A stretch of DNA of 64,000 nt from the NCBI RefSeq assembly GCF_000732605.1, contig NZ_JPME01000020.1:1-64000 (forward strand). The letters are read 5' to 3'. This DNA is from Lacrimispora celerecrescens. GTDB taxonomy: Bacteria; Bacillota; Clostridia; Lachnospirales; Lachnospiraceae. The notes under the pieces were generated by a model, which searched no databases, was not told the origin of the DNA, and was given only the letters and a program-made list of their open reading frames with translations. Position numbers and translations under genes: made by a program. Below, piece after piece: positions 2,013-2,283 of the stretch; the first letter of the stretch is position 1, and every line of letters starts with the position of its first letter.

Positions 2013-2052
2013 CAAAAAAAACGACTGCAAGAATCCTTTATCTCACAGCCGT
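2013..2052 (-). terminator. Attenuator terminator upstream of the ABC-F gene
   Basis: On the minus strand ACGGCTGTGAGA pairs with TCTTGCAGTCGT over 12 positions (G-U pairs allowed), with an eight-base loop and a following run of eight T. It sits 40 bases before the ABC-F start, so it must be bypassed for expression. Confidence 0.85.
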
Positions 2053-2054
2053 TC

Positions 2055-2142
2055 GCATAAAATAAGCCCATAGGGCTAATATTTTGCATGATCCATGTCA
2101 TTTTATGACAAAAAGGGCAGGAGAATGAAATACTATTCTTGC
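2055..2142 (-). promoter_or_regulatory. Antiterminator arm and spacer hairpins of the ABC-F leader
   Basis: The arm at 2125-2142 reads GCAAGAATAGTATTTCAT on the minus strand. It can pair either with the leader ORF region (2205-2223; two 8-bp blocks with a small internal loop) or, through TGCAAGAAT, with ATTCTTGCA in the terminator (2026-2034). Between them, hairpins at 2096-2110 and 2055-2087 fold compactly and bring arm and terminator close together. Confidence 0.7.
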
Positions 2143-2214
2143 AAAAACAGGCATGACAAAAAAAAGACAATGTCTCTTTTTCTTCTCATCATGCAGTTAC
2201 TTGAGCAAGAATTG

Positions 2215-2223
2215 TTATTTCAT
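2215..2223 (-). CDS. Two-codon leader ORF (Met-Lys-stop) of the ABC-F attenuator
   Basis: ATG AAA TAA is preceded by GAGGTG at ideal spacing, on the only transcript that could lead into the ABC-F gene. The ORF itself is part of the first pairing arm, so a ribosome held on it would mask 2205-2223 and free the antiterminator arm. Drugs that block the first peptide bonds would be sensed this way. The ORF and pairing are seen; the drug-sensing role is inference from known ABC-F and erm leader attenuation. Confidence 0.65.
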   Translation of the reverse strand: MK

Positions 2224-2254
2224 CCTTTCACCTCATTTCGATTTATATGCCCGT

Positions 2255-2283
2255 AGTCTATCATAAATATATATTATTGTCAA
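2255..2283 (-). promoter_or_regulatory. Sigma-A promoter of the ABC-F gene
   Basis: TTGACA (2278-2283), a 17-bp spacer and TAGACT (2255-2260) place the transcription start about 25 bases before the leader ORF. Together with the leader ORF, pairing arms and terminator this accounts for most of the 360-base gap between motB and the ABC-F gene. Confidence 0.75.

Follow-up and report, generated by a model that had tools for sequence, protein, structure and literature searches.

A putative ribosome-controlled attenuator with a two-codon leader ORF ahead of an Lsa-like ABC-F gene in Lacrimispora celerecrescens, and start-stop leaders among its relatives

The gene and the parts of its leader

The window analysed here, a stretch of 64,000 nucleotides from Lacrimispora celerecrescens, carries on its minus strand an ABC-F ribosomal protection gene that is preceded by a leader ORF of only two codons. 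This raises the question of what so short an ORF could sense and how it could control the gene behind it. We consider it highly probable that the element is a ribosome-controlled transcription attenuator of the ABC-F gene, in which a drug-stalled ribosome on the start codon frees an RNA arm, here called B.

The gene (1973-474, minus strand) encodes 499 amino acids including the methionine, with its own start ATG at 1973-1971 and its own Shine-Dalgarno sequence, GGAGG, at 1985-1981. The protein passes the ribosomal-protection model NCBIfam NF000355 (444 bits, cut-off 380) and does not pass the curated Lsa family model NCBIfam NF000167 (680.1 bits, cut-off 750), while its nearest solved structure is Lsa(A) (7nhk, E 4e-113); the gene is therefore named Lsa-like only. 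Matches at E 1e-100 were found in 22 of the 24 other genomes of the genus, one of them (G015) in two pieces, and a second copy in the window's own genome is 59% identical.

The sequence-only reading had described a promoter, a leader ORF with a ribosome site, alternative pairings and a terminator, and each part was found where it had been placed, on the minus strand. A consensus scan gives a sigma-70 type promoter at 2283-2255 (TTGACA-17-TAGACT, with TG before the -10 element); promoter-like sites as such are common, four being found against 2.0 +/- 1.5 in shuffles. The leader ORF, ATGAAATAA (ATG AAA TAA, Met-Lys-stop), is located at 2223-2215 and its start codon is kept in relatives. It is served by a Shine-Dalgarno sequence, GAGGTG, at 2234-2229, similar in the clade alignment, with 7 nt from the end of GAGG to the ATG. 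Arm A (ATTCTTGC, 2212-2205) is the anti-antiterminator strand, assigned from the fold and from covariation, and its partner, arm B, consists of GCAAGAAT (2142-2135) and TATTTCAT (2132-2125), assigned in the same way. The pairing of B with the ORF region that had been proposed comprises two exact 8-bp blocks, 2142-2125 against 2223-2205. Both blocks can pair with arm A and the ORF, and the first can alternatively pair with the 3' arm of an intrinsic terminator at 2054-2014, a hairpin of 14 pairs (stem 2054-2019) with a T8 run to 2014 that is supported by scan and covariation. This alternative, likewise foreseen, uses a copy of ATTCTTGC at 2034-2027 within the terminator 3' arm, here called arm D, which sequence and covariation identify as B's partner in the antiterminator.

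A small hairpin occupies the spacer between arms A and B, and two more lie between B and the terminator. Directly 3' of the anti-antiterminator hairpin, a T5 run (2114-2110) is possibly a first terminator or an early pause site; by eye, a T-run after the first hairpin occurs in many but not all clade leaders, and since some lack it a tandem-terminator reading led nowhere. Between the terminator and the Shine-Dalgarno sequence of the gene there is a small inverted repeat, GCAGAAA/TTTTCTGC (2011-1992), with similar repeats seen by eye in several relatives of the genus. No leader family of Rfam 15 scored above gathering over the element, and a known Rfam element was therefore rejected as its identity. 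Elsewhere in the window, a bglG/LicT-type antiterminator RNA (Rfam RF03530, 119.8 bits) was observed at 256-396 on the minus strand.

Covariation of the pairings and the predicted switch

In the proposed mechanism, a ribosome would translate the two codons in the absence of drug and then leave, upon which arm A, the ORF and its Shine-Dalgarno sequence would fold back onto B. With B occupied, the downstream hairpin would stop transcription short of the ABC-F gene. If formation of the first peptide bond were blocked by a drug (a pleuromutilin, a lincosamide or a streptogramin A, the drugs countered by Lsa-type proteins), the ribosome would be frozen on the start codon, where it would cover much of arm A. 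The freed B would then take ATTCTTGC out of the emerging terminator and the ABC-F gene would be transcribed. Translation of the ORF, stalling, drug specificity and read-through are the four steps of this scheme that we infer.

The leader folds at -81.5 kcal/mol, compared with -52.8 +/- 4.2 for 200 dinucleotide shuffles, none of which was as low. Terminator-like sites on both strands between 1900 and 2400 number three against 0.3 +/- 0.7 expected, where one is the leader terminator and the other two belong to a single small palindrome. When only the segment between arm A and the terminator was shuffled by single bases, one of 100 shuffles gave an 8-base B that fits both A and D. The comparative evidence for the element is stronger than these fold and shuffle results.

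Covariation was examined in 24 leaders of the window's clade, taken from 28 listed (L011, L012, L014 and L107 were left out). The anti-antiterminator was paired in 88.2% of cells (slid controls 45-56%), the terminator in 93.0% (slid 43-58%) and the antiterminator B:D in 98.4% (slid 26-52%), where the structures come from the window's own fold and so favour the unslid version on this measure. Two-sided change was observed at nine, five and two pairs respectively. In shuffles that ignore relatedness (500 per pairing), none was as high on percentage paired for any of the three, and only 3, 1 and 6 of the 500 were as high on two-sided change for the anti-antiterminator, the terminator and the antiterminator. 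For further pair types, 51, 2 and 107 of 500 shuffles were as high, so the antiterminator is not unusual on this last measure. Among the 24 leaders, three pairs of the anti-antiterminator fail in 14, 11 and 21 cases respectively. The third base of codon 2 and its partner in B were found as G-C in 13 leaders, A-U in 5, G-U in 2, U-A in 1 and unpaired in 3, and this covariation suggests that the choice of the second codon follows the fold. The arms also co-vary in wider relatives, as TTCCTG/GCAGGAA/TTCCTG in L014 and L016 and as TTTCTG/GCAGAAA/TTTCTG in L017, and in the clade alignment the stretches outside the arms are much more variable than the arms. Conservation of the ORF and the arms in relatives, on which the sequence-only reading had staked its case, was thus observed both in the covariation of the 24 leaders and in the kept start codon.

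A parked ribosome was modelled by holding bases -12 to +16 around the AUG single-stranded, in folds that ended before the gene's own Shine-Dalgarno sequence (1985-1981). Under this mask 129 of 183 leaders moved from terminator to antiterminator at equilibrium, whereas an equally large control mask placed in the spacer switched none of the 145 leaders in which it fits. Mean terminator probability fell from 0.98 to 0.05 in leaders whose start codon is directly followed by a stop (start-stop leaders), from 0.96 to 0.44 in two-codon, 0.97 to 0.48 in three-codon, 0.96 to 0.42 in six-codon and 0.94 to 0.67 in seven-codon leaders. Masking of the ORF region, which had been suggested as a check, therefore flips most leaders of the family but leaves the window's own leader unmoved at equilibrium: at full length with the ribosome parked, its terminator is predicted with a probability of 0.99 and the antiterminator is 2.8 kcal/mol worse. 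Among the clade leaders 14 of 25 switch, and 11 of 25, the window included, keep the terminator (L001, L009, L017, L024, L089, L092, L093, L095, L103, L105 and L109); the second copy, L002, was also found to keep it. When the terminator 3' arm of the window was folded as it emerges with the ribosome parked, B:D was predicted to form first, with a probability of 1.0 once 8-10 nt had emerged, and to be overtaken by the terminator at about 14 nt, the polymerase footprint being ignored. Since B competes for the 3' arm of the terminator, which is made last, a working switch in the window would have to be kinetic. In these models the missing equilibrium switch is the weakest point of the case.

Start codon, spacing and ORF length across relatives

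Upstream stretches were gathered within the family, across the families of the Paenibacillus row L075 and the Brevibacillus row L065, and in other Bacilli. Rows dropped before counting were L003-L008 (other ABC genes), duplicates with identical upstream DNA, L206, L262, L263 and L268 (wrong frame or orientation) and L153, L241 and L254 (no recognised core, where by eye L254 is start-stop and L241 has three codons); L266 and L291 were flagged and kept after reading. The arm finder gives a bonus for a Shine-Dalgarno-like motif and none for a start codon. A set of A, B and D of at least 6 bases was found in 226 of 265 distinct upstream stretches, although many 6-base sets look like chance, and the other 39 had no three-arm set even at 6 bases. 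Arms of at least 7 bases together with a core and a start codon define a set of 184 leaders, which leans to Paenibacillus kin because those were fetched on purpose. The ORF has one codon in 69 of these, two in 21, three in 13, five in 8, six in 49, seven in 21 and eight in 2; the remaining one, L012, was mis-assigned by the script, its true ORF by eye being ATGAAGTAA.

Whatever the length of the ORF, 182 of the 184 leaders place the first base of the arm-A core at +10 to +17, counted from the A of the ATG; the two outliers are L012 and L027, in the latter of which two starts overlap and the script chose the two-codon one. Of 199 leaders found by their arms, 196 have an ATG at a distance of 9-16 nt ahead of the arm-A core and the other three (L125, L314 and L343) a GTG, in a search that also required a TTCTTG-type core and with a 9-16 range set after the 184-leader result. 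Background windows in spacers have an ATG at this distance in 204 of 1129 cases (18%). Most six- and seven-codon ORFs were observed to follow the pattern M-x-x-x-S-C, in some cases extended by one residue, and their Ser-Cys codons lie within arm A; the short ORFs stop ahead of arm A yet keep the arm.

Within the genus 22 leaders were read, the window's included and G015 left out, and all have a two- or three-codon ORF encoding MK (5), MN (2), MI (1), MKK (9), MKL (4) or MEL (1). In L107 (G022, same genus) the ORF MEL and arm B are kept and no T-run terminator was found ahead of the gene. The second Lsa-like copy of the window's genome (L002, 900-1320) has a six-codon leader, MINFSC, with the same arms, and a second small ORF of 26 codons (MINKDTLLTHVSIHIESDTAGGTYME) between leader and gene which is possibly a second sensor. 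Related ORFs with a T-H motif occur in L111, L133, L178-L181, L329-L332 and L334; the search for them returned 13 hits among 299 stretches, of which L191 is probably unrelated. On a tree of 108 proteins, made by a quick method that leaves 41 of 105 inner branches open and with ten ORF labels set by hand (L012, L015, L026, L027, L042, L086, L102, L107, L110 and L115), the window's clade holds 29 rows; its support, 93, falls short of the 95 threshold. Its 27 labelled rows have two- or three-codon leaders only, and the other two are a duplicate leader (L104) and one with no arms (L051). Two-codon leaders outside the clade occur in Ruminiclostridium (L037, L080), Brevibacillus laterosporus (L052), Paenibacillus senegalensis (L042, by eye) and the Brevibacillus family (L274, L285, L288). 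No leader of the arm-A type was seen at Bacilli genes of 38-46% identity (L336-L342). The Paenibacillus-type orthologues L076, L087, L218, L221, L228, L230 and L238 are without a three-arm leader and have in common a different short stretch, TATAGTTATCCTTTCCTTCGAA, upstream near the gene.

Within the genus, codon 2 encodes Lys, Asn, Ile or Glu; in the near relatives L011 and L024 it encodes Arg. The sequence and length of the peptide vary while the start codon, the spacing and the arms stay, which argues that the peptide is not the sensor. The anatomy described beforehand and its interpretation as an attenuator hold, but the dipeptide does not stand as the sensing element. The comparison fits a sensing element made of the start codon plus spacing, with ribosomes that would be stalled at the start codon.

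Other explanations have to be weighed against control by a drug-stalled ribosome. The ORF could be incidental, with a metabolite or drug binding the RNA itself or with the hairpin acting as a fixed partial terminator. The strong RNA structure favours this explanation, and an element without a covering Rfam family might be a new RNA element; however, all 199 leaders found by their arms have a start codon whose distance from arm A is conserved, and the arms vary far less than their surroundings in the clade alignment. We regard an incidental ORF as very improbable. Less probable still is a minigene effect, in which the two-codon ORF would act through drop-off of peptidyl-tRNA or through protection of the mRNA against RNases rather than through an RNA switch. 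There is a precedent in the two-codon minigene of axe-txe, which raises Txe translation in cis, possibly by mRNA protection, according to the accessible part of that report (PMC8708949). Against a minigene effect, the mutually exclusive pairings of the present leaders covary, and relatives carry five- to eight-codon ORFs at the same position. To our knowledge, drop-off is not expected with ORFs of that length.

The lysine codon at position 2 of the window and of many relatives would agree with an amino-acid attenuator that senses charged lysine tRNA, where starvation would stall the ribosome at this codon. We rejected lysine-starvation sensing, which is the least probable of these alternatives, because codon 2 is not kept: it varies among Lys, Asn, Ile, Glu and Arg and is a stop in 69 of the 184 leaders. 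In addition, the gene product is a ribosome-protection protein and not an amino-acid enzyme or transporter. For attenuation by a drug-stalled ribosome, the analysis shows the anatomy, its conservation, compensatory change in all three pairings and, in the folds of most relatives, a predicted switch.

Start-stop leaders and known short leader ORFs

In 69 of the 184 leaders, mostly from Paenibacillus, Cohnella, Brevibacillus and kin, the same three arms accompany a start codon with a stop immediately after it. The sequence is ATGTAA in 44, ATGTAG in 17 and ATGTGA in 8, and examples about 190-240 nt before the ABC-F start include L031, L050, L060, L065, L075 (Paenibacillus hemerocallicola), L198 and L215; further cases exist beyond the 69, among them GTGTAG in L308 and L314. 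On the tree, all 23 start-stop rows belong to a single clade of 40 rows from Paenibacillus, Cohnella, Brevibacillus and Shimazuella, which also holds eight rows with five to eight codons, three with two or three and six unlabelled ones. In this stretch L213 (ATGTACAACTTTTCTTGCTAA) differs by one base from L050 and L216 (ATGTAAAACTTTTCTTGCTAA), and this pair could show how a start-stop leader originates.

All three letters of the stop pair with arm B (A, U, U on its side) in 56 of the 69 predicted folds, so base pairing may be what produces the stop. On these grounds, and because a GURR constraint yields a stop in three of four cases, an account by selection on the stop codon as such was rejected. 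Spacing between Shine-Dalgarno sequence and AUG is long (10-12 nt) in 60 of the 69, a feature shared by some five- and six-codon leaders. An in-frame TTG, GTG or ATG occurs within 21 nt upstream in 51 of the 69; these codons mostly overlap, adjoin or precede the Shine-Dalgarno sequence and are unlikely to be the true starts.

We lean, with moderate confidence, towards an attenuator in Paenibacillus, Cohnella, Brevibacillus, Shimazuella and kin that is driven by the start-stop AUG-UAA, AUG-UAG or AUG-UGA (GUG-UAG in L308 and L314) and would sense the drug without elongation. The whole signal would then be a ribosome that stays on the start codon, either because release of formyl-methionine is blocked or because turnover is delayed, and the two-codon ORF of the window would represent one member of a natural series running from one to eight codons, with arm A nearly equidistant from the start codon. 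Release-factor reactions are a further target of some of these drugs. The start-stop version in the relatives is the least expected result of this analysis and would surprise a specialist.

VmlR of Bacillus subtilis belongs to another ABC-F subfamily. In the accessible parts of the papers cited here, the vmlR leader has a three-codon ORF, Met-Ile-Asn, and follows the same attenuator logic by experiment, where induction needs the start codon and the Shine-Dalgarno sequence of the ORF (PMC9226507). The variants MDN and MDK are at least equal to MIN and MRK is weaker (PMC9226507), whereas according to the cplR paper efficient vmlR induction depends critically on the identity of MIN (PMC10201436). 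Within the same scope, the vmlR leader resembles the window's in layout, with a short ORF in the anti-antiterminator, an antiterminator against an intrinsic terminator and an ABC-F gene downstream, and also in that several ORF sequence variants work. It differs in having three codons instead of two and in partly hiding the Shine-Dalgarno sequence of its gene, a site before which the folds of the window end. The cplR leader of Clostridioides difficile, as far as its report is accessible, has a three-codon ORF, MR[I/M], is induced by retapamulin and lincomycin, and likewise has its short ORF sequestered by a 5' hairpin together with a terminator, but that terminator also sequesters the gene's Shine-Dalgarno sequence (PMC10201436). 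CplR is of a different family, the window's protein scoring 176.5 bits against a CplR cut-off of 780. For lsaA the same text gives a uORF4u consensus of MAGN (PMC10201436), again a short ORF before an ABC-F gene and one whose product, Lsa(A), is the nearest solved structure, but with four codons; no lsaA leader was identified among the loci collected here. A start-stop AUGUAA also serves as a ribosome-stalling sensor in plant NIP5;1, as proposed here for the Paenibacillus-type leaders, although the accessible account of it (PMC11915504) concerns a eukaryotic, boron-responsive system that acts through mRNA decay and no relation is implied.

With an ABC-F gene downstream, an ORF with its Shine-Dalgarno sequence, an anti-antiterminator that contains the ORF and an exclusive antiterminator, all observed from sequence and covariation, the leader has the layout of the vmlR/cplR type, and its assignment to a known attenuator class with an unusually short ORF is well supported at the sequence level. 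The novelty that had been claimed for the minimal leader is reduced, since published three-codon leaders of vmlR and cplR have, in the text available, the same logic (PMC9226507, PMC10201436); that it has two codons, and is thus shorter, still holds. The literature matches listed, whose coverage leaves out most subscription papers and the supplements, contain no two-codon or start-stop ABC-F leader.

These leaders form a natural series of one, two, three and five to eight codons with common arms and spacing, and comparison of its members makes it directly testable whether sensing of the drugs takes place at initiation, during formation of the first peptide bond or at release. The default minimum of uORF4u is nine nucleotides, or three codons, in the accessible description of the tool (PMC10219788), and a tool with such a limit would probably miss the shortest leaders. 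Antibiotic-inducible genes may thus be under-counted.
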